51,563 bases of DNA. Origin: a virus. The position numbers were made by a program, and so were the translations under genes. A model generated the notes under the pieces. It saw only the letters and a list, made by a program, of their open reading frames with translations. It did no database searches and was not told the DNA's origin. The stretch lies in IMG/VR virus record IMGVR_UViG_3300017771_002609, positions 1 through 51,563 of that record, one strand, 5' to 3'. Position 1 is the stretch's first letter. The number at the start of each line of letters is the position of its first letter. Positions 1 through 44,383 of the stretch are shown piece by piece.

Positions 1-100
1 AAGGGCCGTTTGTAAGTTTAGGGTCATCTCGTTTTAAATGTTCTATGACTAAATCTAAATCTTCACGACTCACATTATTTTTCATTAAAGGGTGCATCAT
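1..100 (-). CDS. DegT/DnrJ-type sugar aminotransferase, N-terminal fragment
   Basis: This gene starts on the minus strand at ATG 100 (a second ATG is at 97) and runs off the left edge after about 33 codons. The ATGA overlap with the stop of the GHMP kinase gene and an AAGGAAG Shine-Dalgarno sequence support the start. The visible protein begins MMHPLMKNNVSREDLDLVIE and continues to a KLTNGP motif. This resembles the N-terminus of PLP-dependent DegT/DnrJ/EryC1 enzymes, which aminate or dehydrate nucleotide-linked keto sugars. The catalytic lysine and PLP-binding regions lie outside the window, so substrate and activity cannot be judged. Its position at the end of a sugar cassette fits a role in making an unusual surface sugar. 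Confidence 0.55.
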   Translation of the reverse strand, partial: MMHPLMKNNVSREDLDLVIEHLKRDDPKLTNGP

Positions 101-1071: not shown

Positions 1072-1992
1072 TTAAAACCTTTGAGATTGTAATATAATAT
1101 TTTCTTTAGATAAATCGTTTTTATTTAGTAAATATTCTCTACCACCATTTTCAAAAACATATGTTTCTGGTAAAGTAACAGATTTAATTTTAGGAAATAA
1201 ACCATTCTTACTTGTCCATTCCCAAACTGCTGATGATAATGCACCTGATGGTGTTTGTTCATCAACCACAACGATACCATCACACTTTGTTATCTGTTCT
1301 GTAAGTTCTATGTCAACAGGAAATGGCTTTGATTTTAGAATATCTGCAAAGGCAAAATTACTACTTGAATCTGAAATTTGTTTGCAGACATGAGCCATTT
1401 TACCATGAGAGATTAGAAGTTTAAAATCTTTCTCTCTAGGGTTGTGAACAAAGACATCTCTTACTTGACCAGTATGTGTATCACGTTCATCATATATGTC
1501 AGGTAGTTCATCTCTATCTAATCTAACATATGAAAATTCTGGATAGTCTAATAATCTTTTTGCGATATTATTTGCTGTAATAGCATCTGAAGCTGTGTAG
1601 ATATTAGAACCTACTATTGACCTTAAACAGGCATATTCTTCTGTAACATAATGTGTAGGTCCTGAATCACAATATCCTATACCTACACCAACTGATATAA
1701 GACATATTGGTAGATTCATAATACCAGGTCCACATTTAATTTGTTCTAAGGCTCTCATTGATAGAAAAGGTGCCATAGCATAACAAAATACTTTTTTACC
1801 TTCAAGTGCCAGACCTACAGCTACGTCTATCATGGCTTGTTCTGATATACCACAATGTATGAAATTATCTGGGTAATCTTTTCTTAAATCATCTAAAGCT
1901 GGCGCACCAAAATCGGCACTTAGAAAATAAATGCTTTTATCAAACTTTAAATTTTCTTTTATTCTTTCTATAAAGGCGTCACGCTGATACAT
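1072..1992 (-). CDS. Transketolase C-terminal subunit (pyrimidine and C-terminal domains)
   Basis: This is the second half of a split transketolase, about 306 residues from ATG 1992. An AAGGAG sequence lies 7 bases upstream of that ATG, which I prefer to the GTG at 2031. The protein carries the TPP pyrimidine-binding features CGISEQAMIDVAVGLALEGK and the following FCYAMAPFLSMRALEQIK segment, then a C-terminal domain with the VVVDEQTPSGALSSAVWEW motif. Such half-size subunits pair with an N-terminal subunit to move two-carbon ketol units. It overlaps the N-terminal subunit gene by 14 bases. Stand-alone pairs of this type are often found in surface-polysaccharide gene clusters, which fits the neighbours here. 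The donor and acceptor sugars are unknown. Confidence 0.82.
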   Translation of the reverse strand: MYQRDAFIERIKENLKFDKSIYFLSADFGAPALDDLRKDYPDNFIHCGISEQAMIDVAVGLALEGKKVFCYAMAPFLSMRALEQIKCGPGIMNLPICLISVGVGIGYCDSGPTHYVTEEYACLRSIVGSNIYTASDAITANNIAKRLLDYPEFSYVRLDRDELPDIYDERDTHTGQVRDVFVHNPREKDFKLLISHGKMAHVCKQISDSSSNFAFADILKSKPFPVDIELTEQITKCDGIVVVDEQTPSGALSSAVWEWTSKNGLFPKIKSVTLPETYVFENGGREYLLNKNDLSKENIILQSQRF

Positions 1993-2773
1993 TATTAATC
2001 TCCTTACGACATTGTTCAATTTCTTCTTCACTCATTTTATTCATGTAATGCCAATGAGGTTTATTCTCCATGAGAGAGAAACCTTTACCTTTCACGGTTC
2101 TTGATAAAATTATCTTTGTAGTATCTGATTTTTTATCTAAAGCATTTCTTAATTGACCGACATTATGACCATCAACGTCATGTATGTCAAAACCAAAACC
2201 TTCTAATTTATCTTTGATTGGTTCTAAACTAACACAATCTTTTGTTTCACCTAATATAATTAAATTATTGATGTCAATAAAGATTGTAAGATTTTTTGGC
2301 TTGTGATGTGAGGCAAATAACAAAGCTTCCCATGTAGAACCTTCGTATAGTTCACCTTCACTAATTACAACATAAACATTTTTAGTCCAATATTCTCTAT
2401 TCCTACAAGCGAATGACATACCAAGACCTACACCAACACCATGACCTAATGAACCAGAGGTAACGTCAATACCTGGTATTGATATGTTACCAAAAACTCT
2501 TAAACATGATTCAGTTGAACCCCAATTATCCCACTCTTTTTGTGGAATAATTCCTAACTTAGTAAGTATTGGGTAAAGTGTAACTGTTGCATGACCTTTA
2601 CTGATTAGAACCTTATCAAATTCTGGCCTTACATAACCACCATGATATAATGTGGTCGCAATCTCTACCATAGAGAAAGTAGAACCTGGATGGCCTTGAC
2701 CTACTTCTACAAATTTTTCAAATAATTCTTTTCTGTATTCATGGGCTAAATTTTGTAATTCACTATCATTCAT
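1979..2773 (-). CDS. Transketolase N-terminal subunit (TPP-binding)
   Basis: This is the N-terminal, thiamine-diphosphate-binding half of a transketolase, 264 residues from ATG 2773. A GGAG sequence just upstream supports this start; a TTG at 2785 would lie inside the end of the preceding gene. Visible family features are GQGHPGSTFSMVEI near the start, SKGHA, the GSLGHGVGVGLGMSFA block and the cofactor region SEGELYEGSTWEA followed by IFIDINN. The usual GDGE of the TPP motif reads SEGE, a small deviation from the classic pattern. The C-terminal subunit gene follows with overlap, so the two halves should form one enzyme. In bacteria such enzymes act in the pentose phosphate pathway or on nucleotide-linked sugars; the cassette favours the latter. 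Confidence 0.82.
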   Translation of the reverse strand: MNDSELQNLAHEYRKELFEKFVEVGQGHPGSTFSMVEIATTLYHGGYVRPEFDKVLISKGHATVTLYPILTKLGIIPQKEWDNWGSTESCLRVFGNISIPGIDVTSGSLGHGVGVGLGMSFACRNREYWTKNVYVVISEGELYEGSTWEALLFASHHKPKNLTIFIDINNLIILGETKDCVSLEPIKDKLEGFGFDIHDVDGHNVGQLRNALDKKSDTTKIILSRTVKGKGFSLMENKPHWHYMNKMSEEEIEQCRKEINNVSA

Positions 2774-2774
2774 A

Positions 2775-4274
2775 TCAATCTCCAAGTATCTTTCTTTTTA
2801 ATTTAATTTTTTCCATTTCAATCACATTGTTTTTTGATTCTACACCAAACTTCTTCTCTACTAAATCTAAAAAAGGTTTATGAGTAAAGTATTTGTGCCA
2901 TGCTTCATCTCTAAACTTTAAAACTTCTGCACCAGTTAAATGTTTAGTACGCAATGGTTTACAGTCATAAGATAAAAAAGCATACTCTTCATATCTTTTA
3001 GGTATATCCCACTTTTGTTGTCTAGCATATAAATGTAAAGGACTACCTGGCAAAGCCATAGCTGCATAAAAGTTTGCGTGTTCTGTATTTAACTCAAGAG
3101 CTAAATCTAAAGTTTCTTGCATATTATCATAGTTCTCTTCTGGAAAACCAAACATATAATTACCAAGAATGTTTATACCGGCATCTTTTATATTCTTTAC
3201 TACATCACGAATATTTACTTGTTTAAATCTACCCTTATCAATCTCTAATCTAACTTGTTGATTACCTGCTTCTATACCAAGACACAGCCAATTGACACCT
3301 GCCTTTTTAAAAAGTTCAAGTTGGTCTTTTCTTACAGAGTCAACTCTTGCATATGCCCAGAAATTAAACTTCATACCTCTTGCAACACAGCCTTCTAGTA
3401 TTGGTACATAATATTTTTTGTTTAGAAAAAACATCTCATCTGTAATTCTACAAGTTCTTACACCTTGGTCATAAAGATATTCTAATTCATTAAGTATAAG
3501 TTCTGGACTCCAGAATCTCATACCTTTTGAGTCAACTGATGTTATATCATAATCATGTGATGTTCTGTTTACAATATTAATCATACAGAAGTTACAACCA
3601 AAAGAACAACCTAAAGAAGTGTATAAGGCTGCAAATGGTGTTCTATTTTCATGTGAAAAATTTGAGTGCCAAAAATGTGCTCTGTATTTTTTTAAGTCAA
3701 TTAAATCCCAAGCATAGCCAGGCATTACTTCATCTAAATCTTTTGTCTTTACTATCTCACCACGTTCTGTTGGTTTTATTAAACCACGGTCATTATACCA
3801 CATACCTGGTACTTTGTCTAAGTCATTTTCTAAATTTGTTTCTAATAGTGATAGTAAACCATAAACACCTTCATTAATAAATGCAAAGTCACAGTAGTCC
3901 TGTGATGCAACCTCATTTGGTAAAGCTGAAGTGTGTGAACCTATAAAAGCAGTTTTTAAATTTGGGTGACTTAGTTTGAGTTGTCTTGCAAGTGTCGAGG
4001 CACCAATCATCATTGTAGTGCCTGAATTTGGATTTTGTCCATATAAAACAAATACAACTAATTTTGGTTTATATGATTCTATTTCATCAGCAGCTTCTTC
4101 GTCTGGTTTATAATCAGCCTCATAGTCTAGTAATATGGGTTCATAATTTTTTTTGCGTACAGCATTAGCTAACAATAAAGCCCATGTAGGTGGTTCTATT
4201 GCCGAATGTGTTTTCGCTAAATCTTGATACGCCTTTTTACCAATAGATGGTATCACAAAACATACTTTATTCAT
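2775..4274 (-). CDS. B12-binding-type radical SAM protein
   Basis: A 499-residue protein with the layout of B12-dependent radical SAM enzymes. Residues about 1-150 form a Rossmann-like cobalamin-binding-type domain. The cluster motif LGCSFGCNFC then gives C213, C217 and C220 in CxxxCxxC spacing, and a TIM-barrel-like region follows with WLCLGIEAGNQ and NYMFGFPEE. Such enzymes use a 4Fe-4S cluster and S-adenosylmethionine to make radicals for methylation or rearrangement. The first ATG has an AGGAA Shine-Dalgarno sequence. The classic cobalamin DxHxxG motif is not clear (IGSHTSALP is the nearest), so B12 use is uncertain. The gene heads the sugar cassette, suggesting a sugar or surface-glycan substrate, but nothing fixes this. 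Confidence 0.8.
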   Translation of the reverse strand: MNKVCFVIPSIGKKAYQDLAKTHSAIEPPTWALLLANAVRKKNYEPILLDYEADYKPDEEAADEIESYKPKLVVFVLYGQNPNSGTTMMIGASTLARQLKLSHPNLKTAFIGSHTSALPNEVASQDYCDFAFINEGVYGLLSLLETNLENDLDKVPGMWYNDRGLIKPTERGEIVKTKDLDEVMPGYAWDLIDLKKYRAHFWHSNFSHENRTPFAALYTSLGCSFGCNFCMINIVNRTSHDYDITSVDSKGMRFWSPELILNELEYLYDQGVRTCRITDEMFFLNKKYYVPILEGCVARGMKFNFWAYARVDSVRKDQLELFKKAGVNWLCLGIEAGNQQVRLEIDKGRFKQVNIRDVVKNIKDAGINILGNYMFGFPEENYDNMQETLDLALELNTEHANFYAAMALPGSPLHLYARQQKWDIPKRYEEYAFLSYDCKPLRTKHLTGAEVLKFRDEAWHKYFTHKPFLDLVEKKFGVESKNNVIEMEKIKLKRKILGD

Positions 4275-22261: not shown

Positions 22262-23254
22262 TTATGATACAGGTCCACCCGTTGCACCGCCTATACTATA
22301 TTTAATAGTTGGTGAATCTACTGTGAAAGTATATCTTGCATATCCTACTCCAGAACCACCAGCACCACCCGTTGTTGTTGTACCCCCATCTGAACCACCG
22401 CCACCGCCTCCACCGGTATTTACTGTTCCAGCAGTTCCAGCTGGGCCGCCTCCGGCACCTGCACCTCCGCCGCCAGCTCCTCCTGCTCCTCCAGGTCTAC
22501 CTGCTCCTGTTATTCCACTTCCACCTCCGCCACCTGCTCTAGCTACAGGTGAACCTGAAATAGAAGATGTTGTTCCAGCACCTCCTGCTCCGCCTGCACT
22601 ACCTGGAGTTGGCGCTTCACCACCAACGGCGCCAGCACCGCCGCCACCACCTCCTGTTGTCCATGTTGCATTATCAGAGTGACCAGGACCGCCATTATTA
22701 CCTTGTGGGGGACTTGTAGGTGGGGTATTTCCAGCTCCACCTGCATAAGCATTATTAGGATAACCACCGGCTCCGCCACCAGAACCTCCAGCACCTCCAA
22801 CTGCTCTTGATCCTCCGTAACCACCGCCTGTTGAAACTATATCTGTAAAAGGTGATGGTGATGTAATAGATGAATCAGTACCTTTTGTTCCAGGATTAAA
22901 TGCACTAGAACCACCGGTGCCAGCAGCTCCGCCAGCACCAATTGTAAACTTGTATTCTTGGTCTTTAACTAAAGAAAGACCCGAAGTGAATCTAAATCCA
23001 CCTGCACCTCCACCGGCACCTCCAGCACCACCGCCTCCACCACCTCCAATTATTAAAAATTCTGCACCTGTCATGGCAAAACTTGGTATAAAATTAGCAG
23101 TAGATGTAAATTCATGAACAGCATTTGTACCATCTATTGTTTGCGTACCACCAGTTGAGTTTGTGGCCGCATTTGCTGTTCCTACAACATTGAGGGTATT
23201 TAATCCTATCGGGTATTGATAACCGAGTGGTCTAGCTTTGTGTTTAATTCCCAC
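22262..23254 (-). CDS. Glycine-rich tail-tip adhesin, third tandem copy
   Basis: A 330-residue protein of the glycine-rich family. It has a header (ARPLGYQYPIGLNT...ATNSTGGTQTIDG...VHEFTSTANF), the strand EFLIIGGGGGGG, then about 220 residues of glycine-rich repeats with short variable inserts, and an end YTFTVDSPTIKYSIGGATGGPV. Such repeats suit a polyglycine type II sandwich, the fold of gp38-type adhesins at the fibre tips of T-even-like phages such as Salmonella phage S16. It begins at GTG 23254, sharing one base with the stop of the previous copy. Receptor binding is inferred. Confidence 0.7.
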   Translation of the reverse strand: MGIKHKARPLGYQYPIGLNTLNVVGTANAATNSTGGTQTIDGTNAVHEFTSTANFIPSFAMTGAEFLIIGGGGGGGAGGAGGGAGGFRFTSGLSLVKDQEYKFTIGAGGAAGTGGSSAFNPGTKGTDSSITSPSPFTDIVSTGGGYGGSRAVGGAGGSGGGAGGYPNNAYAGGAGNTPPTSPPQGNNGGPGHSDNATWTTGGGGGGAGAVGGEAPTPGSAGGAGGAGTTSSISGSPVARAGGGGGSGITGAGRPGGAGGAGGGGAGAGGGPAGTAGTVNTGGGGGGGSDGGTTTTGGAGGSGVGYARYTFTVDSPTIKYSIGGATGGPVS

Positions 23255-24228
23255 TAAACTGGTCCTCCGTTGCTTCCATCTATATCATAAATAACTGAAT
23301 CACTAGTTTGTTCCATAACATATCTGAAAATTACAATTCCTGAACCGCCGGCGGCTCCTGTGCTATTATTATGTCCTGCGGCTCCTCCGCCTCCACCGGT
23401 GTTTACTGTTCCAGCAGATAGAGCTGCAGCTGCTACACCACCAGCACCACCTCCTCCTGCACCGCCAGGAGCTGGGGGTCCAGCATTACCACCTCCACCT
23501 CCGCCACCCGCTCTAGTTACGGGTGATGGGCCTGAAATAGAAGAAGCTACACCTGTTCCACCAGCACCGCCGCCACCTGAAGCACTTGCATTATAATTTG
23601 ATCCTACAGCACCAGCACCCCCGCCTCCACCTCCATGTAAATATGAACCAGGTGCATGATATCCAATCCCGCCATTATTACCTTGTGGAGGGCTTGTGGG
23701 TGGAGTATTACCTGCACCTCCAGCAATTTGAACACCTCCAGTACCACCGGCGCCACCCCCACCAGAACCACCAGCATTTCCTGCCGAACCGGCAGAAAAA
23801 GAACTTCCGCCTCCGCCACCTTCAGATTCTATTGTTGAAAAAGGAGCAGGTGCTGAAATTGTACTATTAACACCATCACTACCTCTTGCACCTGTAGCTC
23901 CGCCGGCCCCTACGGTTGCTGTGTGAGCTTTAGATGCAGTCATAGAAACTGTACCAAATCTATAACCTCCTGCACCTCCACCTCCGCCACCACCAGAACC
24001 GCCACCGCCACCGCCTCCTGCGATTACTAAGTATTCAACGTCCATATCAGCTGAGGGTGTAAAATCTGCCGTTGATGTAAATGTGTGAACAGCATTTGTT
24101 CCATCAACTGTTTGTGTACCACCAGTTGAGTTTGTGGCTACATTAACTGAAACTGAACCACCAATTCTTGTGCTTAAACCTATAGGATAAGCAAAACCCT
24201 CTGGTCTAAAAAAAGAATATCCTGCCAT
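23254..24228 (-). CDS. Glycine-rich tail-tip adhesin, second tandem copy
   Basis: A 324-residue paralogue of its neighbours: header FRPEGFAYPIGLSTRIGGS, then VHTFTSTADFTPSADMDVEYLVIAGGGGGGG, a long glycine-rich body and the end FRYVMEQTSDSVIYDIDGSNGGPV. The insert GGAGNTPPTSPPQGNNGG is shared exactly with the third copy. It starts at an ATG that overlaps the previous stop (TAATG). Base sequence in the header is nearly the same as in the first copy, pointing to recent duplication or gene conversion. Role as adhesin is inferred from composition and place. Confidence 0.7.
   Translation of the reverse strand: MAGYSFFRPEGFAYPIGLSTRIGGSVSVNVATNSTGGTQTVDGTNAVHTFTSTADFTPSADMDVEYLVIAGGGGGGGSGGGGGGGAGGYRFGTVSMTASKAHTATVGAGGATGARGSDGVNSTISAPAPFSTIESEGGGGGSSFSAGSAGNAGGSGGGGAGGTGGVQIAGGAGNTPPTSPPQGNNGGIGYHAPGSYLHGGGGGGAGAVGSNYNASASGGGGAGGTGVASSISGPSPVTRAGGGGGGGNAGPPAPGGAGGGGAGGVAAAALSAGTVNTGGGGGAAGHNNSTGAAGGSGIVIFRYVMEQTSDSVIYDIDGSNGGPV
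24121..24207. repeat. Direct repeat, adhesin header (copy in second gene)
   Basis: A stretch nearly identical in base sequence to 25091-25178, encoding the GLSTRIGGS and VNVATNSTGG header. A more diverged copy lies near 23147-23215, and a weaker one near 36345-36425. Such repeats can support recombination between tandem adhesin genes. Confidence 0.75.
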
Positions 24229-25214
24229 TATACAGGCCCTCCATTTGATCCACCTATATCATAAATTTCTGATACAAAATCTTGACTCATTACATAAGTA
24301 ATCTGAGCAAAACCTGACCCGCCAGCACTAGCATTTCTTTGCCCTCCTGGATTTGAAACGTGACCCCCGCCACCACCTCCTCCGCCACGATTGGCTGTAG
24401 CTGCAGCTGGGGCAGCTGCGTGATTACCACCAGCTGCACCGCCTCCATTACCTCCCGTTCCAGCAGGAGTTGAACCTGGATGTGTACCGCCACCGCCTCC
24501 GCCACCGTAATATTCTGGTGAACCAGTAAAAGTTATAGCTACACCGACACCGCCTGGTCCTCCTGTACCCGGAGTAGCGCCAGCTGTTCCTACTCCACCT
24601 GCACCTCCTCCACCACCGCCAGCTAAAGGCGCCCCATTTCCTCCAGCATAACCTTGAGCATTTCCTGCCACAGAGGGAGGTCCACCTGGAATTGCAGTCA
24701 TTCCTCCTCCACCGCCAGAACCACCAGCGTTAGCAGGAGTTGATGATTCACCAGCACCACCCCCACCACCTTCAGCAGTTAAGTTTGATGATGGTGTATT
24801 TGAATTAATTGTTACTGTGGTATTTGTGCCGTTTGCACCTTTTGTTCCAGTAGAAGTTGAACCGGCACCGCCAGCTCCTAGTGTAATAGTTAAAACAGCT
24901 CCTGGTGCTACTGAATAATCATTACCAATAATTACACCTCCAGCACCTCCACCTCCGCCAGCTTTTCCACCGCCAGCTCCACCAGCAACAAACATATAAG
25001 CAAAAGTATATGTGCCGGCTGAACTATTTGTAAAAGTACCTGATGAAGTATATGTGTGAACTGCGTTTGAACCAACTGCGGTTTGAACACCGCCAGTTGA
25101 ATTTGTGGCTACGTTAACTGATTCTGAACCACCAATTCTTGTGCTTAGACCTACTGGATATTTAAAACCCTGAGGTCTACCAATTTTCTTTGTGCTAAGA
25201 CGAGAAATTCCCAT
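24228..25214 (-). CDS. Glycine-rich tail-tip adhesin, first tandem copy
   Basis: A 328-residue glycine-rich protein: header GRPQGFKYPVGLSTRIGGSESVNVATNSTGG, strand AYMFVAGGAGGG, a body of GGGGGAGG-type repeats separated by short variable loops, and the end ITYVMSQDFVSEIYDIGGSNGGPV. It has the same layout as the 360-aa protein at 35452-36534. No Shine-Dalgarno sequence is seen before ATG 25214, so it may depend on coupling to the small gene ending 10 bases upstream. Likely a fibre-tip adhesin; three tandem versions could widen or switch receptor range. Confidence 0.7.
   Translation of the reverse strand: MGISRLSTKKIGRPQGFKYPVGLSTRIGGSESVNVATNSTGGVQTAVGSNAVHTYTSSGTFTNSSAGTYTFAYMFVAGGAGGGKAGGGGGAGGVIIGNDYSVAPGAVLTITLGAGGAGSTSTGTKGANGTNTTVTINSNTPSSNLTAEGGGGGAGESSTPANAGGSGGGGGMTAIPGGPPSVAGNAQGYAGGNGAPLAGGGGGGAGGVGTAGATPGTGGPGGVGVAITFTGSPEYYGGGGGGGTHPGSTPAGTGGNGGGAAGGNHAAAPAAATANRGGGGGGGGHVSNPGGQRNASAGGSGFAQITYVMSQDFVSEIYDIGGSNGGPV
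25091..25178. repeat. Direct repeat, adhesin header (copy in first gene)
   Basis: The partner of 24121-24207; the two differ at only scattered positions over about 87 bases and keep the same reading frame. Confidence 0.75.
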
Positions 25215-33913: not shown

Positions 33914-35446
33914 TTAATTTATAAAGTATACTGCGCCATTTGATAAATCTCCTGTTATGGCGTCATAGACAATGTGTACAACACCACTACCACCAGAACC
34001 TGGATTAGTAGGTCCACTAGGTATTTCTCCTGGAAAATATGGATTATAATTTCCTGGAGCACCGCCGCCTCCGCCACCGCCCCCTCCGTTAACAGTTCCA
34101 GATTCAGCAGTAATATATTTATCGTAACCAGGAAAACTAGGTGCTAATGGGGAAGGTACGCTGAAAGGAACTCTTCCGTTACTTGCACCACCTCCACCAC
34201 CGCTGCCGCCACCTCTAGGTGGGCCATTTGTACCACCAGCTCCACCTGCACCTATAGATCCTATTGGCACAACACCTTTAGCAGTAACAGTCACAGCATC
34301 ACCGCCATTTCCGTATACGGGTGTTCCTGTACCTGGAGATGTAGGATTGTACCCCATACCGAAACCTTGACCTGCAGCTCCACCTCCACCGCCTCCAATT
34401 AAAACCGGTCCTGCACCACCGCCGTATGATGAGGACATATTAGTATCACGAAGAATCGCTGTATAAGTTCCTTGACCACCTGGCATTCCAAAATGATTAT
34501 TAGCTTGACCACCTGGATAAGCGCCACCACTAACATATTGACTAGCTGGCATAGAAGGACTCATACCCGGATATGGATAAAAAGGAGCATAACTTAATTT
34601 ATTACCAGCAGGGTTTGTGGGTGGTCCTGCTTGCGGAGATGTTGCTGGATTATTTGCAATCGCACCGGCTGTAATAAGTGGTTGAGGACTAGGTGCAGAT
34701 GGTTGTGCTAATTGACCTCCATCAACAGGAGCATATAACAAAGAATTAGGGTCTTGAGTTGCAACAGCACCTAAATTTTCATCATTGTAATTATTTCCTG
34801 TGCCTGCTCCACCGCCACCTGACCCCATCTCCTGAGTAGGTGAACCTAGAGCATTACCTTCTCCAGAACTTGTGCCAGGCATACCATTCCCTCCAGCTCT
34901 ATCAACAGCACCACCGCCTCCACCACCATAACCTATTAAAAATCCAGTATTGTTACACATTGGGTGAGCGCCATTGTAAAACTTTATTTCAGATTTATCT
35001 CCGTTACCACCTCTCTGAGGAGGATTATGAGCAGGGTTAGTTCCCCCAGCACCAACAATAACTGGATATGTTTGTCCAGAGTGAACTGTGACTGACTTAG
35101 CAAATACAACACCGCCTCCGCCGCCACCTCCTCCATAACCACCTCCTCCAGCACCGCCAGCTCCTACAACAATCACATCTACGTTACCCGTAAAACCACA
35201 AGTAAACGAACCTGACTGTCTAAATGTATGTCGAACTTTTTGACCTGGACCTGGAATATTATCACCAAAAAAAGTTTGTTGACCTTCTGGTGAAGTTGGG
35301 CTAGTGAGACCTGATGGAGCAGCTGTTGCTAATTGCAAACCAACATTTACTCTAGTATCGCTAACAACTAATTTACTATTCAGTCCTGCTGGAAACTCAA
35401 AACCAGGAGGTCTTATATTTTTTGATGATACTTTTATATTACTCAT
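33914..35446 (-). CDS. Glycine-rich tail-tip adhesin, large (510 aa)
   Basis: The largest of the five glycine-rich proteins. The header IRPPGFEFPAGLNSKLV and the HTFRQSGSFTCGFTGNVDVIVVGAGGAGGGG segment tie it to the family, but the N-terminal part has a longer insert. The body alternates GGGGG runs with Pro and Asn-rich loops (for example PQPLITAGAIANNPATSPQAG). It ends in GSGGSGVVHIVYDAITGDLSNGAVYFIN, a different tip from the GGPV ending of the tandem trio but similar to the 360-aa neighbour, which also ends in FIN. Likely a second receptor-binding tip. Confidence 0.7.
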   Translation of the reverse strand: MSNIKVSSKNIRPPGFEFPAGLNSKLVVSDTRVNVGLQLATAAPSGLTSPTSPEGQQTFFGDNIPGPGQKVRHTFRQSGSFTCGFTGNVDVIVVGAGGAGGGGYGGGGGGGGVVFAKSVTVHSGQTYPVIVGAGGTNPAHNPPQRGGNGDKSEIKFYNGAHPMCNNTGFLIGYGGGGGGAVDRAGGNGMPGTSSGEGNALGSPTQEMGSGGGGAGTGNNYNDENLGAVATQDPNSLLYAPVDGGQLAQPSAPSPQPLITAGAIANNPATSPQAGPPTNPAGNKLSYAPFYPYPGMSPSMPASQYVSGGAYPGGQANNHFGMPGGQGTYTAILRDTNMSSSYGGGAGPVLIGGGGGGAAGQGFGMGYNPTSPGTGTPVYGNGGDAVTVTAKGVVPIGSIGAGGAGGTNGPPRGGGSGGGGGASNGRVPFSVPSPLAPSFPGYDKYITAESGTVNGGGGGGGGGAPGNYNPYFPGEIPSGPTNPGSGGSGVVHIVYDAITGDLSNGAVYFIN

Positions 35447-35451
35447 ATTAT

Positions 35452-36534
35452 TTAATTTATAAAAATGTCAAATGCTGATTGACTGATTGAAAAATATCTT
35501 ATTACTGCGTAACCACTTGCACCAGCACCAGCGGTGCTATTACCATAACCTCCGCCGCCGCCGCCACTTCCTCTGTTAACTGTCCCATTACCACCAGGTG
35601 CTGGTCCAGCTCCTGGACCTCCGTTACCACCTATACCACTTCCGCCAACTCCTGCTGTTCCAGTTCCCTCCCAAACTCCGCCACCACCTCCACCACCGTA
35701 AGTAGTAGATACTTCATCATATGCAAGAGTCAAACCAGCTCCGCCTGCACCACCAGCTGCTGGGCCAGCATTTCCGCCAACTGCACCTACACCGCCTCCG
35801 CCACCGCCTTGGCCATTACCATCTGGATTTCCTGAATCAGAACCTCGACCACCTGCATTACCATAAAATAAACTATAACTTGGAGCGGACATTGGGTTAA
35901 CTGATGTACCGCCAGCACCTGCTGTAGGTGCTGATCTTCTTCTAGCTGAACCACCTCCACAACCTCCTGGAGCTCCTGGATCCGCATCTCCACTACCATC
36001 ACCGCCTTTTCCACCTCCGTGTACAAGCACACTCGCAGAACCGTTTACTTCTATTGTAGTATTTCCACCACGGTGATTATCGTCCGGACCTGGTGCGCTT
36101 GCAGCACCGCCAGCACCTATTGTTATATAACAATTAGCTCCAGCTGAAACGGGATAATTATTTCTATATAGAATACCACCAGCACCACCTCCACCGGCAA
36201 TTTGATATCCTCCTCCACCACCGCCAGCTACTAAAAAATATTCTAAGGTGCCAGTAAAACCTGGAGTAAACGCATCTGAAGTTGTGAATGTGTGAATTGT
36301 ATTTTGAGTAGGACTACCGTCTGAACCAACTGTGGTTTGTGTGCCACCTGTTGTGTTAGTGGCTACATTACTAAAAACTCTTCGTGTATTTAATCCTACT
36401 GGAAACGCAAAACCTGGAGGCCTTACGCTGAAACAAGTAGCCGAACCTGTGTTTGATTTAGTTATCTCATTTTTTCGTATACCAATTTCTGATAATTTAG
36501 TTGCGAAGCTCCTAGATGCAAGTTTTATAGACAT
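35452..36534 (-). CDS. Glycine-rich tail-tip adhesin, 360 aa
   Basis: A 360-residue glycine-rich protein of cassette A: a 30-residue N-terminal extension, the header RPPGFAFPVGLNTRRVFSNVATNTTGGTQTTVGSDG, then IHTFTTSDAFTPGFTGTLEYFLVAGGGGGG, a body of glycine runs with short variable loops, and the end GYAVIRYFSISQSAFDIFIN. It lies directly after the small 112-aa protein, as the first tandem adhesin does in cassette B. Probable polyglycine-sandwich adhesin; receptor unknown. Confidence 0.7.
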   Translation of the reverse strand: MSIKLASRSFATKLSEIGIRKNEITKSNTGSATCFSVRPPGFAFPVGLNTRRVFSNVATNTTGGTQTTVGSDGSPTQNTIHTFTTSDAFTPGFTGTLEYFLVAGGGGGGYQIAGGGGAGGILYRNNYPVSAGANCYITIGAGGAASAPGPDDNHRGGNTTIEVNGSASVLVHGGGKGGDGSGDADPGAPGGCGGGSARRRSAPTAGAGGTSVNPMSAPSYSLFYGNAGGRGSDSGNPDGNGQGGGGGGVGAVGGNAGPAAGGAGGAGLTLAYDEVSTTYGGGGGGGVWEGTGTAGVGGSGIGGNGGPGAGPAPGGNGTVNRGSGGGGGGYGNSTAGAGASGYAVIRYFSISQSAFDIFIN

Positions 36535-36887: not shown

Positions 36888-37403
36888 TTACATTCCTGAA
36901 AGTAATAAAATTGTTGGTAAGGCGTTTGCAGCTTCAAAGGCAACGGGTATATTCACAGATACATTAACAACATTACTTACACGGCCTTTATCGTTTACTG
37001 TAATGACTGGTATAGCATTTTCTGCACCATATGTTCCAGCATCTACTCCTGTTGTAGTTAACAAAGAATCACCGATTGCAACACCCGTAGCTAATTTATT
37101 TTGTGTGATTGACCCATCATCTACTGTAAAAATGCCTACTCTTTGTCTACTTCTACCTACAACTAAAACATTATTTGCACCAGCTGTAGGTGCTTCTGAA
37201 AAGTTTATTGAACTATTTGCAAATGTTACAGTATAGGAATTAAAAGGGTCTTGGTGTACGTTGTTTACATATACATCAAGTTCTTTTGGATCCGAAACAG
37301 CATTTGATAATGCAAAACTCGTTGCAGTATTATTACCATTAAAAAGCTGAGATGTTCTTTCCGATAATTCTGTTTCTGGAGATCGACCAATATATGTTCC
37401 CAT
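36888..37403 (-). CDS. Tail-fibre shaft protein, cassette A
   Basis: A 171-residue fibre protein. The first 90 residues (MGTYIGRSPETELSERTSQLFNGNNTATSFAL...ELDVYVNNVHQDP...APTAGANNVLVV) are the common marine phage fibre N-module. The rest has DGSITQNKLATGVAI and the shaft motif GTYGAENAIPVITVNDKGRVSNVVNV. It ends in ILLLSGM, similar to the 82-aa protein at 21555-21803. It opens the ordered set fibre, small beta protein, glycine-rich protein, mirrored at 26071-22262. Confidence 0.75.
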   Translation of the reverse strand: MGTYIGRSPETELSERTSQLFNGNNTATSFALSNAVSDPKELDVYVNNVHQDPFNSYTVTFANSSINFSEAPTAGANNVLVVGRSRQRVGIFTVDDGSITQNKLATGVAIGDSLLTTTGVDAGTYGAENAIPVITVNDKGRVSNVVNVSVNIPVAFEAANALPTILLLSGM

Positions 37404-37411
37404 ATTTTACC

Positions 37412-37756
37412 TTATAGACCTGAAATTTCTAGTGTTGACACAACAACATGGCAAGAAAGGGCACCAGAAGTATTTACATTGATGCTTTCACCTGGCTCTA
37501 TGACAAGTTTTTGGTCTCCACCAATCGGCACAATAGAACCTCCAGCAGGTATAGTAGCATCAGTAACTAATGAATATTGAACATTTACAGTATTAGAATG
37601 AACGTATACACTAGCTGTTTGTGCTATGTTTGTAATATTTGAAATAGTCATACCGACAACTATTTTATCAGTTCCGCTATCTGAGTTTGTAAAAACAGAG
37701 GCAGCATAGCCTGTCGTTGCGTTTGCGAAATTACTTCTAAATCTATTCGTTGCCAT
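37412..37756 (-). CDS. Small beta-rich virion protein, 114 aa
   Basis: A 114-residue protein with no signal or membrane segment. IVVGMTISNITNIAQTASVYV, ATIPAGGSIVPIGGDQKLVIEPGESI and SCHVVVSTLEI follow the layout of the 109- and 112-aa small beta proteins, though more distantly. It is the first gene of a transcription unit with an exact TATAAATA and a purine-rich leader. A structural role at the fibres is inferred from place. Confidence 0.7.
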   Translation of the reverse strand: MATNRFRSNFANATTGYAASVFTNSDSGTDKIVVGMTISNITNIAQTASVYVHSNTVNVQYSLVTDATIPAGGSIVPIGGDQKLVIEPGESINVNTSGALSCHVVVSTLEISGL

Positions 37757-37788: not shown

Positions 37789-38523
37789 TCAGGACATAGC
37801 AATTGATAGGGCTAGTGCATCTGATACAGCATTATTAGCCGCATTAAAAGCAGCCTGAACTGTATTTTCTACTGTGATTGAGTTACCCATACCAGCGTGT
37901 ACTGTACAATTATAGTAATAAACAGCACCTGTTAAATTATCGGTTTCTGGAACTTTAAAATACAAAATACCACCTGTTCTACCTTGTGCGGCTGCACCTT
38001 GAAAAACCTCTAAACGATTACCATTGTTTGCCTTCTGAACAAAAGTTAGACCAAAATTAATATTTGCACCTGAACTATCGTTTGTACTACGAATCGCAAA
38101 AGGGTGACTTGAACTTAAATTCTGTAAATCAAAAGCATAGGTAGAACCCGCTTTTAAAAATAATGGTGGTTTTACCCTTGGTGTGGTGCCTTGAGTTTTG
38201 AAAAGAAAATTTCCAGAATTTGCATAAACTTCATATCTAGCTGAAGCTGTGCCTGAGGTGTTTGCTTGAGAGGTATAAAGAGAAGAATCTGATGTGGTAA
38301 GTATTAAATTACCATTCATGGTTAGATTATCAAATCCAGCCGCATCTAAACTTATATTACCCGTTACATCTAAGTTACCATCAACGACTATATCAGTATT
38401 TGCATAAAACTTATCGTTTATTGCACCATCTGTTAGATGATTTAATTTTTGTACTGTTTCAGACGTTGTTGTAACGTGTTGTTGAAACGTATTTCCTGTG
38501 GTTATATTTCTTATAATTGCCAT
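37789..38523 (-). CDS. Fibre protein with cupredoxin-like copper-site motif
   Basis: A 244-residue virion protein. The N-terminal 80 residues are fibre shaft-like (DIVVDGNLDVTGNISLD). Residues about 115-220 read as a cupredoxin-like beta sandwich with the type 1 copper ligand set: H140 in SSSHPFAI, then C206, H209 and M212 in YYYNCTVHAGMG. The C-x2-H-x2-M spacing is that of amicyanin; plastocyanin has C-x2-H-x4-M. Related segments occur in other marine phage fibres. Whether copper is bound is unknown; the fold could serve only for stability or receptor contact. It follows the 70-aa gene by 2 bases. Confidence 0.7.
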   Translation of the reverse strand: MAIIRNITTGNTFQQHVTTTSETVQKLNHLTDGAINDKFYANTDIVVDGNLDVTGNISLDAAGFDNLTMNGNLILTTSDSSLYTSQANTSGTASARYEVYANSGNFLFKTQGTTPRVKPPLFLKAGSTYAFDLQNLSSSHPFAIRSTNDSSGANINFGLTFVQKANNGNRLEVFQGAAAQGRTGGILYFKVPETDNLTGAVYYYNCTVHAGMGNSITVENTVQAAFNAANNAVSDALALSIAMS

Positions 38524-38525
38524 AG

Positions 38526-38738
38526 TTATCTCTTAGCTACGATTTGTCTTAAAAGTGTTTTAATCTCTTTAAATTCATCTTTAATTACATTGACTTCTTG
38601 CGTTAAAGTTTCTAAAGTTACACTTTGTTGTTTTCTTTTTTTTGCTTGCATCATTTTTACCAAGTCTGTATTTAAAACAGCTTTTGTTCTCGAATCTCTA
38701 ACGAGATTTTTATGATCTTTTACTTTTATCACACTCAT
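38526..38738 (-). CDS. Small conserved phage protein, 70 aa
   Basis: A 70-residue charged protein: IKVKDHKNLVRDSRTKAVLNTD followed by a Lys-rich stretch and a C-terminal coiled coil (VNVIKDEFKEIKTLLRQIV). Short proteins beginning VKVxDHxxLVRD are frequent beside baseplate and fibre genes of marine T4-like phages. The start overlaps the stop of the 1882-aa gene. It may act as a small linker or assembly factor; function is not known. Confidence 0.7.
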   Translation of the reverse strand: MSVIKVKDHKNLVRDSRTKAVLNTDLVKMMQAKKRKQQSVTLETLTQEVNVIKDEFKEIKTLLRQIVAKR

Positions 38739-41700
38739 GATAATGCTATAGCCCTAAAGTTTTTAATTGTTGGAGCCTTTGCAGTATTCGTTGCATATAA
38801 AACAACTTTAATTGCAAAAAATCTAAAGTTATCATATGTAGCGTTAGCATTTGCATACGTTATATCTTCTGCTCTATATTCACAATCATAATAGTCATTA
38901 TAGTTTTGAGATGTTACTGATGGTGTATATTGATTCATTAACGTATATGGTAATTCTTCAAATTCAGTTGAATCAACAGCTGATTGAACTTTATAATAAA
39001 CTTCAACTGTTGCACCTTCTGGTAAATTCTTAGAAATAATTACTCTCAAACCATTTGCATCAAAATCATCAGCTAACTTAACTTTCTTTGTAATATATTT
39101 AGATAATGCTCCACCACCTTCACTTTGTGTTTCTGGATTATCTGTAACATCAGTATTTGCTGTACTATTTAATAAATTTTCTGCAAAAATGAATCTACAT
39201 TTATCTAAATCAAATGTTGGAGATACATCTGCATTTGTTGTAGACATTGTAACTCTTAGATTAGCCTGTCCAGTAGCATCAAATTGTTGTCTTGTTTCAA
39301 AATAAATATCTGATTCAGGATAAACATTTATACCAGGACTGGCAAGTCCTGAATCACCATTTGCTGTTGTAGCTAATTTAAATGATAGAGCTGTTTGGTC
39401 TGAATATGTTTCATAAGGCACACTCACTTTCATGTAGTCAACATATTGTGTAGGTAGAGTACCTTTTACTGCATCTACATCTGTAAAGAAACTACCTGAA
39501 GTATTGAAAGCACATTTTCTAATTTCAAATGCTAAGTCAGATAATTGGTCTGGTTCCCATGTTCTAGCATTTTGTGATTTGAATAATGAACCTGTATATG
39601 GTTGTGAAGCTACAACTTGACCATTATCAATTCTTGTTTCACCAACTGTTGCAATAAACACCGTATAATTTGAAGAATTTGTAAGTAATACAATAGAATA
39701 TTCAGCTGGTTCTAGGAATACTGGCTTATCAAAAACAAATTGTGTTGCCTTTGGTGTATTAGGTGATTCTGGTAAAAATACATCAGCTGGATTCTTTGTA
39801 ATTCTTGCACCAAGTATAATATCATCAGCACTTGGATATCCGTTTACAGTTTTTCTAATCTCTAAAGTAACTGGTAATGATGAATCTTTAGTAGCAAAAA
39901 ATACAGATATGTTTGGTACAAATATACCTTTTGGATTTGTAAATTCATTTACAAAGAAAGTTTGTGCCAAAGGATCTACATAAACACCTTGTTGTATGTT
40001 TGCAAATTCCGGTGATGATCTAAAGATTTGTTCTATAATACCTCTTGCTTGGTCATCACTAGACCTATCTCTGACATCACCTATATCATTATTATTGATT
40101 TGTTTTAAATAATAACCATAACCAGATTTATCGGCTTTTCTACTAAGAATACTTCCATAAAGTGAGTATATTATTGGTCCCCAATTGTTTACAACAGTAG
40201 AATCAAGACCCTCTCTATTGATTAAATCTGCATTTTTTTGAGCAAGTGTAATACAATCAGGATTTTGATTTACTTGATCCCAATAGAAATCACAATCATA
40301 ACTTGCTGGTTGAGCTGGTATTTGTTGTACAACAGAATCTTCTGCTTCAACTGTTTCAACTCTAGGAGTTCCAGAAAAATATCTAGTTGAAGCTAATGTT
40401 GTATGAAATGTAGGATTAATAATAGCATCACAGAATATAATCTGATGTTCGCCAGCAAAAAACTGTTCGTTTGTTTCTGGATTATTCGGTAATATTATTC
40501 TACCTTTTGCAAAACCATTTTCATCAGATATGATTGTTACAGAATTTTCATAAGCAGATGTATCAGAGTTAAATCTATTTAGCCTATCTGATACATTTCT
40601 ATTATCTATGAAGGCATGAACAATCGTGTTAGGTTTATAACCATAAATTTCAAAGTCAATATTTTGAGAAGCTGCATAATAAAAAACTTTATCAGTTTCA
40701 GTTTTTTGACTATAATATCCTGCTTCTTCAGCTGATGTAGTTGTTTTTACTTTTTGGTTTGTTGTATCATAGTATGTAAACACTTTTGCATCACTTCTAT
40801 CATAACTAACTAAATTCCATTCACTCCATGTTGAACCTGTATAGTTTTCTCCATATTCATAATTATCTGAGTTACCTTCTGTGTTAACTCCAACAAATGG
40901 TCTCGCACCAAAATCAGCGTAAGTAGCTACTTCAGTTGCAAGTTTAACATGACCTACAAAACCAACTACATTAAATGGGTTAACATTTATTGTACCAGTC
41001 GCAACTGCCTGTGCAGTATAAACATCTGTACCATAATTTAATGTTAATCTATTGCCAGTATTTCTTAAAGAGGCGTTTAGTGTCGATTCTGATGCTGAAG
41101 CTGCATTAGCCTTAAATCTAGGTCTCATAAGACCGTTGGCTGGATCAACAGCAATTTTATAATCAGGGTTAGCAACATCACCTATGCTATGACCTCTAAA
41201 CGGATCTACAACAAATCCATTACTAAGAAGTTCAGTATTGTTGTTGGAAAAGAAAGTTGTTGAGGCTAATTCGCTCTCTAGTAAATTTAAAGACGTATAA
41301 TATTCAACTCTTGTTAAACGATCATCAAGACCGCTTATATCTTTCATTGTATATCTTTTGTTTTTAACAATCTCTAATTTTACATTACTTGCCTGTGCTG
41401 TGTATGCCTCTAAGGCCAATTTAGCCACAGTCATTGAATCAGGATCATCTGCTGGGGTTGGTGGGTCATTTAAAGCAGGTTCACCTTGAATAACTCTAAA
41501 GTTACCATCAAAACCTAAAACTAATTTATCATTTCTAGGTATGAAATATGATAATTTCATAACAGCTGTTGGATCTTCTGAATCTGGCATTTCTAGTTTA
41601 GAAAATACCATATTATTATTTGAGTATGCGTTAGGTGTGTTATCAGCAGTTCTATATGGTCGGAAATCTATACTATCTCTTAAAGATATGATAGTACCAT

Positions 41701-44383
41701 CTTTTTTAGTAAATTGTGGTATTGATTCATACTTTAAAACTTGGTTGTATGAAGCTGAATCAATATAACCAAGGCCGTTTGCCTCAACGTGATGGAATAT
41801 CACATTCATTACACCAACATTTATTGTTGATGTATCTGGATAACCATTTGCTAATGAGTTGTTAGCCTTCAATCTAATAGTGCCATAATCAAAGAAACTA
41901 TCTCTTTGGCCCGTATCAAAAGTAAAAGCATTTCTTACATTTACGTTGGCATCAGTAGCATTATTTCCTGGAGTTGCAATGTAAATTGCCTCTACGTTTA
42001 TAACATGACCTTGACCTAATGACACTCTTTTAGTTTTACCACCATCTACTTGAGTGTGTGTACCATTTGCATAATTTTTATATTTTTTTCTTGATGTTAA
42101 TACTCTTCTATCACCTTGACCATTTTGAACCTGTAAAGTTGCTATAACATTTGCAGTACCACCAAATGAGCCATCACCAAGATTTATTTCAGCAGCCGGT
42201 GTAGCACCGCCTGTTACTGTAACAGAGTCTATGACTGGGACTTGAAGTCCTACTGGATTTGTAGATGTTCCAGAACCGGTAACAGTTACTTGATAATTTT
42301 TTTGTTTAGCAGTTGTTGATGATGCAGCTACAAAAGTTTTATCACCATCACCAGATTGTATTGTACCTACACCTCCAGTAAAACTAACTGAAGGAAAAAG
42401 TTTTCTTATTTGATAACTAAAACTTTCAGTTCCAGTATTTGCCACATAATTATATGACATTGGGAAAAGTGAAGTATCTTCATTTGCATCTGAAAAAACA
42501 GATCTACTAAAAGTATAGTTATTTGAACCAGAATTAGTAAAGAAACCATCACCTAGGTCGGTGGTTGTTCCAGAAAATACCGTACAACTTATTTCAACAT
42601 TTGTACCTCTAACAGCTGTAACATATGCTATTCTTCTACCAAGACCTTGTTGAGCTAAAGATGCTGAACCAGTATTTCCTGCAGCTACTGGCCCGTTGTT
42701 AGATACATTATGACCTTCTACCATATCACCAATACGAATATCAGTCGCATCAACAACGACCATGTTATTTGTGCCGTTTGCTAATTGAGCCGGTGTTCTA
42801 TGTGTTTGAATAGATGTAGAATCTAAGTTTGCATTAGCATTAGCAGAATTATTTACACCTATACCAACCACGGTTCTTGTTAAACTTAGTGGTAAATTAC
42901 TTGTATTTCTAACATTAAAAAGTGATAACTTATATACATTATTTTCTCTACCCGAACTATCATTTTTAAAGAACTCTATATTCTTTACATGAGCCTCACC
43001 TATTTTTGTATTTTGTGCAAATGATTGTACTGTTGACTGTGGTCCGCCATTTGCCAAATTTGATGAGTGTAGTGAAATTTTAGGAAATGATACATTATCT
43101 GTAAATAAGGTGTTATTTGCACCGTTAATAAAGATAAAGTTACCATATGATTGTTCTAAACTATAAGTGTTAGCTGTTTCTGTATCTCTTGCTTTTGGTA
43201 AATTTATATTTGTATCAGCTATTTTTAATATTTCATAACCTTTTACATAAGCTTTACCTTTGTCTACCGTAAGAATACCATTTGATGAATTTCCTAAATT
43301 AGCAACTCTAGGTTCAAGGCCTCTTATTATGTAATCACCAGATTCGTCAAAAGTTCTTCTTGCAAGTGTTCTACCTAAATCAGAATATTTTGTTTTAGTA
43401 GCATCTTTGACTAATTGACCATTTTTGTATCTTGCAATTTCTATATACTTTGATGTAGATAATTCTGGTATTGACTTTGTTGTATCGTCTAATTGTTTTC
43501 TTGATAAAGTTAAATTAATTTTATATCTATCAGCACCAGTAGCTAAATAGTTTGAAGAATCTAAAGCAGGGTCAAGTAAACTACTATCATCAGAAGATTT
43601 TACTATACTTTCTGTTACGTCAAATCCTACTGAAACATTTGCAGTTTTACCATATTTGTCAGCTGCAACTATCTGTTGTTGATTCTTTACAAAAACACCA
43701 CTTGTATAGAAAACACCTTCTGTTACACCTAATAGTTTAGCATCACCATAAGGATTTGAATTTGCAGTTACTTGTGTTATTAGATTTTCTGTATTTACTA
43801 CAATTGAAGAGTATACATTTAAAGTTGCATTTGCACCAACACTAACATTACCTAAAGTTACACCACTACTACCATTAGCATTAACTGAATTTAATGCACC
43901 GTTAGCAAGGTATAAACCTATTGATTTGATATGTGAAACATATAACGTAGGTGGGTCATTTGTAACAGCATCAGCTGCATCAGCGTGATGCACAAAAAAT
44001 ATATTTTTAGTGTTTGCAGAATCTTTTATACCTGTGATTGGAACTGTTACATAACCATTTATAAAACTTGCTACATTTACCGATACACCCGTAATTGGGT
44101 TAATTGGTGATAAGTTTATGTGATTAACAGAGGGTTGTAAATTTATAGTTAATTTATCTATCTTACCTTCACCAACACCAAAAACATCCGCTCCAGTTAC
44201 TTTAGAACCATCTTTAAATAAATGATTACCGAATTTAGTAACTTGGTCTTGTAGTATTGTTTGTGATTGTGTTAACTCACGAGCTTGAACCGCCCTACCT
44301 GGTTGAAAAAGTATTCTATGAAAATTTTTATCTTCGTCAAAATCATCATAGTATGGAGTTGTTTTAAATTCGTCTAATGCCAT
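38735..44383 (-). CDS. Large DUF4815-type virion structural protein, 1882 aa
   Basis: A 1882-residue protein. The N-terminus FKTTPYYDDFDEDKNFHRILFQPGRAVQARELTQ and the following TILQDQVTKFGNHLFKDG are the signature of the DUF4815 family of marine myovirus virion proteins. Around residues 1400-1450, SLYGSILSRKADKSGYGYYLKQ resembles a DUF4214-type element. It is followed by the conserved VDPLAQTFFVNEFTNPKGIFV segment, seen in the same protein family. It lies where T4 has genes 9 to 12, after gene 8, so it probably builds the outer baseplate or fibre socket. The cofactor or receptor, if any, is unknown. Confidence 0.8.
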   Translation of the reverse strand: MALDEFKTTPYYDDFDEDKNFHRILFQPGRAVQARELTQSQTILQDQVTKFGNHLFKDGSKVTGADVFGVGEGKIDKLTINLQPSVNHINLSPINPITGVSVNVASFINGYVTVPITGIKDSANTKNIFFVHHADAADAVTNDPPTLYVSHIKSIGLYLANGALNSVNANGSSGVTLGNVSVGANATLNVYSSIVVNTENLITQVTANSNPYGDAKLLGVTEGVFYTSGVFVKNQQQIVAADKYGKTANVSVGFDVTESIVKSSDDSSLLDPALDSSNYLATGADRYKINLTLSRKQLDDTTKSIPELSTSKYIEIARYKNGQLVKDATKTKYSDLGRTLARRTFDESGDYIIRGLEPRVANLGNSSNGILTVDKGKAYVKGYEILKIADTNINLPKARDTETANTYSLEQSYGNFIFINGANNTLFTDNVSFPKISLHSSNLANGGPQSTVQSFAQNTKIGEAHVKNIEFFKNDSSGRENNVYKLSLFNVRNTSNLPLSLTRTVVGIGVNNSANANANLDSTSIQTHRTPAQLANGTNNMVVVDATDIRIGDMVEGHNVSNNGPVAAGNTGSASLAQQGLGRRIAYVTAVRGTNVEISCTVFSGTTTDLGDGFFTNSGSNNYTFSRSVFSDANEDTSLFPMSYNYVANTGTESFSYQIRKLFPSVSFTGGVGTIQSGDGDKTFVAASSTTAKQKNYQVTVTGSGTSTNPVGLQVPVIDSVTVTGGATPAAEINLGDGSFGGTANVIATLQVQNGQGDRRVLTSRKKYKNYANGTHTQVDGGKTKRVSLGQGHVINVEAIYIATPGNNATDANVNVRNAFTFDTGQRDSFFDYGTIRLKANNSLANGYPDTSTINVGVMNVIFHHVEANGLGYIDSASYNQVLKYESIPQFTKKDGTIISLRDSIDFRPYRTADNTPNAYSNNNMVFSKLEMPDSEDPTAVMKLSYFIPRNDKLVLGFDGNFRVIQGEPALNDPPTPADDPDSMTVAKLALEAYTAQASNVKLEIVKNKRYTMKDISGLDDRLTRVEYYTSLNLLESELASTTFFSNNNTELLSNGFVVDPFRGHSIGDVANPDYKIAVDPANGLMRPRFKANAASASESTLNASLRNTGNRLTLNYGTDVYTAQAVATGTINVNPFNVVGFVGHVKLATEVATYADFGARPFVGVNTEGNSDNYEYGENYTGSTWSEWNLVSYDRSDAKVFTYYDTTNQKVKTTTSAEEAGYYSQKTETDKVFYYAASQNIDFEIYGYKPNTIVHAFIDNRNVSDRLNRFNSDTSAYENSVTIISDENGFAKGRIILPNNPETNEQFFAGEHQIIFCDAIINPTFHTTLASTRYFSGTPRVETVEAEDSVVQQIPAQPASYDCDFYWDQVNQNPDCITLAQKNADLINREGLDSTVVNNWGPIIYSLYGSILSRKADKSGYGYYLKQINNNDIGDVRDRSSDDQARGIIEQIFRSSPEFANIQQGVYVDPLAQTFFVNEFTNPKGIFVPNISVFFATKDSSLPVTLEIRKTVNGYPSADDIILGARITKNPADVFLPESPNTPKATQFVFDKPVFLEPAEYSIVLLTNSSNYTVFIATVGETRIDNGQVVASQPYTGSLFKSQNARTWEPDQLSDLAFEIRKCAFNTSGSFFTDVDAVKGTLPTQYVDYMKVSVPYETYSDQTALSFKLATTANGDSGLASPGINVYPESDIYFETRQQFDATGQANLRVTMSTTNADVSPTFDLDKCRFIFAENLLNSTANTDVTDNPETQSEGGGALSKYITKKVKLADDFDANGLRVIISKNLPEGATVEVYYKVQSAVDSTEFEELPYTLMNQYTPSVTSQNYNDYYDCEYRAEDITYANANATYDNFRFFAIKVVLYATNTAKAPTIKNFRAIALS

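Follow-up and report, generated by a model that had tools for sequence, protein, structure and literature searches.

A cupredoxin-like domain with a probable type 1 copper site in virion appendage proteins of marine phages

The locus and its gene content

The window analysed here, 51,563 bases in length, is the whole of a virus record, and its gene content, as read by eye, includes T4-like packaging, sheath, baseplate and fibre genes. Among the matches listed, its terminase matches those of cyanomyoviruses, the pelagimyovirus Mosig and the Methylophilales phage Melnitz at 53–55%, and the virus is therefore a marine T4-like myovirus. A further record, L010, is of this virus or of one nearly identical to it (99.9% over 5,540 bases). 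The protein under study, P0001, is encoded on the minus strand by the ORF at 37789–38523 and is 244 residues long. The features of the locus are given below, where L011, L012 and L013 are the three nearest relatives of the P0001 locus.

37789–38523, minus strand: P0001, a probable virion appendage protein of 244 aa with a C-terminal cupredoxin-like domain (phrog_677 match at 7.8e-21; synteny with L011, L012 and L013)
37858–38253, minus strand: predicted cupredoxin-like beta-barrel domain, residues 91–222 (AlphaFold2; Foldseek and VIA; PDB profile match to amicyanin)
38104–38106, minus strand: codon of H140, first proposed copper ligand, in an H-P-F motif (invariant in 44/44)
37906–37908, minus strand: codon of C206, proposed thiolate ligand and sole Cys of P0001 (invariant in 44/44)
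37897–37899, minus strand: codon of H209, proposed ligand (invariant in 44/44)
37888–37890, minus strand: codon of M212, proposed axial ligand (invariant in 44/44; opposite rusticyanin residue 148, judging from the alignment ends)
38254–38523, minus strand: N-terminal region of P0001, residues 1–90, fibre-like, of low model confidence (common to L011, L012 and L013)
37795–37863, minus strand: C-terminal helix of P0001, residues 221–243 (helix 221–243 in the AlphaFold2 secondary structure, moderate pLDDT)
38526–38738, minus strand: upstream neighbour, a virion structural protein of 70 aa, phrog_473 (kept as a neighbour in L011–L013 and L262)
38735–44383, minus strand: upstream neighbour, a baseplate-type protein of 1882 aa (phrog_358, DUF4815; relatives annotated VrlC)
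37412–37756, minus strand: downstream neighbour of 114 aa (kept beside the domain protein in L011–L013)
36888–37403, minus strand: downstream neighbour, a fibre-type protein of 171 aa (synteny comparison)

The gene order VrlC-like protein, 70 aa protein, P0001, 114 aa protein, 171 aa protein is kept in L011, L012 and L013, where the synteny runs on through a relative of a 112 aa ORF, with identities of 37–64%. In L011, the gene of the domain protein is tandemly duplicated, giving two copies. P0001 matches phrog_677, “baseplate wedge tail fiber protein connector” (7.8e-21), over positions 264–410 of a profile of 412, so that it shares with gp9 the C-terminal domain and not the whole protein. 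The initial annotation had called P0001 a tail-fibre protein; the label is a loose one, because the phrog_677 match covers the C-terminal part of the gp9 connector.

Elsewhere in the fibre region of the window, five proteins very rich in Gly runs form two clusters on the minus strand (22262–25214 and 33914–36534). The left end of the window (97–2785, minus strand) contains, as judged by eye, an ORF resembling GHMP-type sugar kinases and two half proteins resembling transketolases, which are possible sugar-modification genes.

The candidate copper ligands

A complete type 1 copper ligand set had been proposed for P0001 from its letters, and H140, C206, H209 and M212 are all found where they had been placed, in the segment SSHPFAI...YYYNCTVHAGMG. 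As far as the sequence can tell, two His, one Cys and one Met thus occupy the canonical positions of a type 1 site. P0001 has four His residues, two of which are the proposed ligands, and C206 is its only Cys. Across the six frames of the window, the C-x2-H-x2-M spacing occurs in a long frame in P0001 only, and a looser pattern has one further match, within a 3-residue frame that contains a stop. Since the ligand Cys is the only Cys both in P0001 and in 51 of 57 gp9-sized ORFs, a role of C206 in an intrachain disulfide is ruled out. The first His of the phage domain is followed by Pro (H-P-F). In the small blue copper proteins this His is usually followed by Asn, and H-P is the arrangement of the laccase type 1 site.

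Predicted fold and structural neighbours

AlphaFold2, supplied with an alignment of 44 sequences, predicts a confident beta-barrel for residues 91–222 (pLDDT mostly 87–96), with low confidence for residues 1–90; modelled alone, the domain reaches a pLDDT of 90.5 and a pTM of 0.85. The span of 115–225 assigned to the domain at the outset does contain it but starts slightly late, the predicted barrel extending from about 91 to 222. In the model, the domain is a Greek-key beta-barrel that resembles solved cupredoxins and would place it in the cupredoxin superfamily, and both this barrel and the Foldseek and VIA matches to cupredoxins bear out the cupredoxin-like frame that had been suggested.

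When the domain model was compared with the PDB by Foldseek, the top matches listed were 2dv6 (3e-5) and rusticyanin 1rcy (8.8e-5). The neighbours listed include copper nitrite reductases, rusticyanin, multicopper oxidases and laccases, cytochrome oxidase subunit II, and an azurin with an amicyanin-type loop; the sole non-cupredoxin among the 50 rows listed is 9ijj. With VIA, the closest solved folds are the cupredoxin domains of rusticyanin, laccase and NirK (Z 8–10), among them NirK with a Z of 9.9 and rusticyanin 2cal with a Z of 9.2 and an rmsd of 2.6 over 95–96 residues. The top VIA rows (NirK about 157–312) correspond to the domain that lacks the type 1 site, the type 1 Cys being residue 135 according to the entry titles, and the fold match alone is therefore no proof of copper. 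The rusticyanin rows do include the type 1 site. Model residue 219 (132 in domain numbering) pairs there with residue 155 of the rusticyanin chain, which puts M212 opposite residue 148, the registration being taken from the range ends only.

Kinship with known copper proteins

Sequence homology to cupredoxins is detectable with a family profile. In a search of all PDB sequences with a profile of 44 phage sequences, amicyanin came first (4.5e-5), and all 33 chains with E <0.1 were type 1 copper proteins, 10 of these lying at <1e-3; the only unrelated proteins among the 60 rows shown were six Fc-receptor chains near E 0.5. The Cys, the second His and the Met align without gaps with those of amicyanin, in agreement with the amicyanin-type C-x2-H-x2-M loop that had been claimed, while the first His (H140) is two residues off and requires a gap.

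As a single query, P0001 matched no known cupredoxin by sequence, and it had no match in Pfam and NCBIfam at the curated cut-offs. The cut-off of the amicyanin model TIGR02657 was not reached, with no match of P0001 and weak ones of 14 of the 44 relatives (best E 0.007). The same holds for the gathering cut-off of the plastocyanin/azurin model PF00127, which gave no match of P0001 and matches of 5 of the 44 relatives at E 0.023 or worse, the L011 paralogue scoring 14.0 bits against a cut-off of 21.2. The halocyanin model, with 9 of the 44 family members (best 2.5e-4), gives a hint of cupredoxin kinship; PF25489, At5g54830-like, with 24 of the 44 (best 5e-4), is a hint as well, and neither was used as a label. 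The Pfam matches of P0001 to HDPD, B_lectin and Lin0512 (E 0.05–0.12) are far under cut-off and were taken as noise. At 42278–42538 the profile matched the window a second time (E 0.018, 10.8 bits); this match is devoid of C-x2-H-x2-M and was taken as chance.

Conservation of the ligands among relatives

The 44 aligned sequences have a mean pairwise identity of 48% and a minimum of 18%. Eight of the 96 well-occupied columns are invariant; four of these are the ligands, while Pro accounts for two of the rest, and Gly and Tyr for one each. If four columns were drawn at random from the 110-column model, the chance of the ligands falling among the invariant columns would be about 1e-5. Homologues that vary the ligands freely had been named as the outcome that would speak against a copper site, but the four are invariant in all 44 of these divergent relatives. 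The same eight columns are invariant among 50 representatives at 90% identity, with the ligands kept in 50/50.

Because the pattern of the first scan covered the Cys, the retrieval was repeated with queries that end before H140. The ligand-blind sets obtained in this way, the best 80 of 587 and the best 80 of 337, contain H-C-H-M in 79 and 79 cases, which is every one of the 158 readable loci, one locus per set being cut by a contig end. With contigs seen before removed, H-C-H-M is present in 66 of 67 and 62 of 63 loci (52 and 42 distinct sequences, including two cut by contig ends). These sets consist of fairly close relatives, so the distant rows weigh more.

In four of the 44 sequences, two from L011 and those of L012 and L013, the spacing is C-x2-H-x3-M, and the His and Met are kept despite the extra residue; one domain of phage P-HM2 has the same spacing, as judged by eye. 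Such loop-length changes occur among genuine cupredoxins. In a panel of 16 phage records, five of which were chosen for having a prior match, 10 records matched, and their 23 matches comprise 17 complete sites, one with Gln in place of Met (P-RSM6) and five without a site; the matches of at least 30 bits number 17, 16 of them complete and one with the Gln. Two phages, P-SSM2 (NC_006883.2) and P-HM2 (NC_015284.1), each have four complete copper-type domains distributed across several large proteins.

Altogether 142 distinct domain segments were compared. The four ligands H-C-H-M are present in 108 and H-C-H-Q in one; in two more, C-H-M is present and the first His falls beyond the aligned part. 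The other 31 are second barrels of cyanophage wedge proteins, in which Cys, His and Met are lost together, the His at the first position being kept in three of the 31. Intermediate states are rare: in P-RSM6 c the His alone remains, and in S-PM2 the Cys alone. This near all-or-nothing pattern, with a single Gln, is as expected of a metal site. The H-C-H-Q domain belongs to a large structural protein of P-RSM6 (L098), where it replaces H-C-H-M. An axial exchange of Met for Gln is known in stellacyanin, and the tuning of a copper site could be tested on the P-RSM6 domain as a natural variant.

Distribution of the domain and its protein contexts

A tblastn search with P0001 returned 51 phage records, all of marine cyanophages and all through the C-terminal part, and the annotated matches are mostly gp9, “baseplate wedge tail fiber connector”. 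A search started from L017, a more central member of the family, matched 357 of 50,697 phage records; the names of all 357 read Synechococcus, Prochlorococcus, Cyanophage, Marine, Pelagibacter, “uncultured” or “phage”. In IMG/VR, an alignment of eight sequences used as query brought up 457 relatives, and the best 80 of them were taken further. All 44 representatives carry the label phrog_677, 18–30 of the 44 match tail fibre families and 5 of the 44 the wedge subunit, so that the domain appears as a mobile one of virion appendages. Proteins that bear it are annotated as gp9, tail fibre, virion structural, wedge subunit or hypothetical. The initial annotation was right that similar segments exist in marine phage fibres, but what it treated as one fibre protein is a domain that is widespread among marine phages, in their gp9 connectors, fibres and wedge proteins.

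The hosts of domain-bearing phages are unrelated and include cyanobacteria, Pelagibacter and Methylophilales. Within the 16-record panel, the domain had no match in HTVC008M, P-SSP7, T4, KVP40, Ma-LMM01 and S-CREM1, and from its absence of match in HTVC008M, P-SSP7 and S-CREM1 it follows that a marine phage can dispense with it. A scan of cellular contigs from 84,980 species gave one locus, which by eye belongs to a phage fibre cassette carried on a MAG contig; the scan used two degenerate patterns, one of them spanning the Cys region, and remoter cellular relatives would therefore be missed. For the virions of S-SM1, 41 proteins have been reported, in a section of text that does not name gp9 (PMC3037559).

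Other domains occur in the vicinity of gp9-like genes. The cyanophage “baseplate wedge subunit” at L039:4318-8301 (+) contains a YHYH domain (PF14240, 58.8 bits against a cut-off of 25) that adjoins two cupredoxin-like barrels, and the same applies to the wedge gene that follows gp9 in other cyanophage loci. Of 41 distinct ORFs, 31 have YAYF or YAYY as the YHYH motif, while neighbouring ORFs of L034, L041 and L042 read GEYHYH. Subtilisin-like protease domains (PF00082, by eye) are found in fibre cassettes beside gp9-like proteins, at L259:4819-8316 and in the upstream gene of L096.

Comparison with known systems

Amicyanin is of the same fold class, shares the C-x2-H-x2-M loop residue for residue and is the best PDB match of the phage profile. 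P0001 differs from it in being a virion protein, in its first motif, H-P-F, and in having no known partner for electron transfer. Rusticyanin, laccase and NirK are enzymes or periplasmic carriers, whereas the phage domain is part of a virion; the C-H-M loops of rusticyanin are also longer. In the gp9 of cyanomyoviruses, this domain makes up the C-terminal 125 residues or so and has the four residues of P0001. P0001, however, has 244 residues against about 410 in gp9, lacks the N-terminal two thirds of the latter, and is encoded after a VrlC-like gene, whereas the gp9 gene stands before the wedge gene.

Two phage systems are related in other respects. The iron-binding HxH fibres of T4 gp37 and of marine phages are likewise metal sites in phage appendages, but they have another fold and octahedral iron (PMC11705849), in contrast to the predicted mononuclear site of Cys, Met and two His in P0001. 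Plastocyanin, encoded by petE, is likewise a cupredoxin encoded by cyanophages (PMC3037559); petE is an auxiliary photosynthesis gene, whereas the P0001-type domain is part of virion proteins.

Interpretation

Residues 91–222 or so of P0001 probably form a cupredoxin domain of a virion appendage, one in which a mononuclear type 1 copper site is intact and which belongs to a marine-phage domain family. The sequence, predicted fold, conservation and synteny were obtained directly for P0001, and from these we infer copper as the metal, of which the domain likely binds one ion in a mononuclear type 1 site. That the motif arose by chance in an unrelated fibre has next to no probability, being refuted by the conservation (44/44, 50/50 and 158/158), the fold and the PDB profile match. 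An Ig-like spacer would be a more substantial objection, whether metal-free or metallated for structure only, in which the residues are kept for packing or hold zinc or another ion without redox chemistry. In its favour, the protein folds in the cytoplasm, which offers little free copper, and the same barrel exists in ligand-free copies; phage fibres also often gain stability from metal, for example iron at HxH in T4 gp37 (PMC11705849). This reading is nevertheless unlikely: Cys, Met and both His are invariant through a change of loop length and are lost in concert, which is the pattern of a metal site and not of packing, and the PDB chains found by the profile at E <0.1 are type 1 copper proteins in 33 of 33 cases.

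The use to which such a site might be put has been considered in two further forms. By analogy with the hypothesis of iron-loaded tail fibres (PMC11705849), a copper-loaded domain might act as a “Trojan horse” that docks on a copper or metal uptake receptor of the host; the location of the domain in appendage proteins would suit this idea, but phages of unrelated hosts (cyanobacteria, Pelagibacter and Methylophilales) carry it, and the idea is rather improbable. Slightly more doubtful still is a redox- or light-gated adsorption, in which a copper site reduced or oxidised at the host surface would switch the appendage. Type 1 sites are redox centres, and P-HM2 has four complete sites while P-SSP7 has no match; P-HM2 has been reported not to adsorb in the dark and P-SSP7 to infect in the dark (PMC7112961). 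Against this, the comparison is one of two phages made after the fact, and Mosig, Baldr and Melnitz-1 bear the site in spite of heterotrophic or non-photosynthetic hosts. Moreover, S-PM2, the adsorption of which is light-dependent, retains a mere remnant of the domain, in which the ligand set is incomplete. The link of the domain to light is only suggestive and was not adopted. Equally doubtful is the idea that baseplate connectors and fibres house redox-active type 1 copper centres whose redox state, on the surface of the host, controls adsorption or sets off the baseplate; if this were true, virions would be copper metalloproteins, and infection would be linked to redox or light conditions in the host envelope.

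For the preferred reading, a cupredoxin domain with a type 1 copper site, the following course can be envisaged. The apo-barrel would fold with a preformed pocket, and one copper ion would be acquired outside the host cytoplasm, from sea water or from the host envelope. Uptake outside the cytoplasm is probable, because free copper in the cytoplasm is very low. The metal would then lock the loop end of the domain, presumably exposed on the virion, at the junction of fibre and baseplate. The domain may serve as a stabilising and docking module, which is put forward tentatively as its simplest use, and a redox change would be possible in principle. Ligand-free barrels of the same family occur in the same phage genomes, and the fold can therefore also serve without metal.

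Implications

Cupredoxins, phage-borne plastocyanin genes and metal sites in fibres are already known. No description of a copper-site cupredoxin in virion connectors or fibres was found in the literature searched, in which the coverage of subscription journals and bioRxiv was thin. The T4 particle contains 18 gp9 chains, so a cyanophage that bears gp9 could carry a similar number of copper sites, if copper is held. In that case, the attachment apparatus of cyanomyovirus virions would be fitted with a set of blue copper centres. Such centres would add a new type of virion metal site to that of the iron HxH fibres, and sea water might have in them a small store of bound copper. The domain would also offer a direct handle on unexplained traits of these phages, such as light-dependent adsorption.
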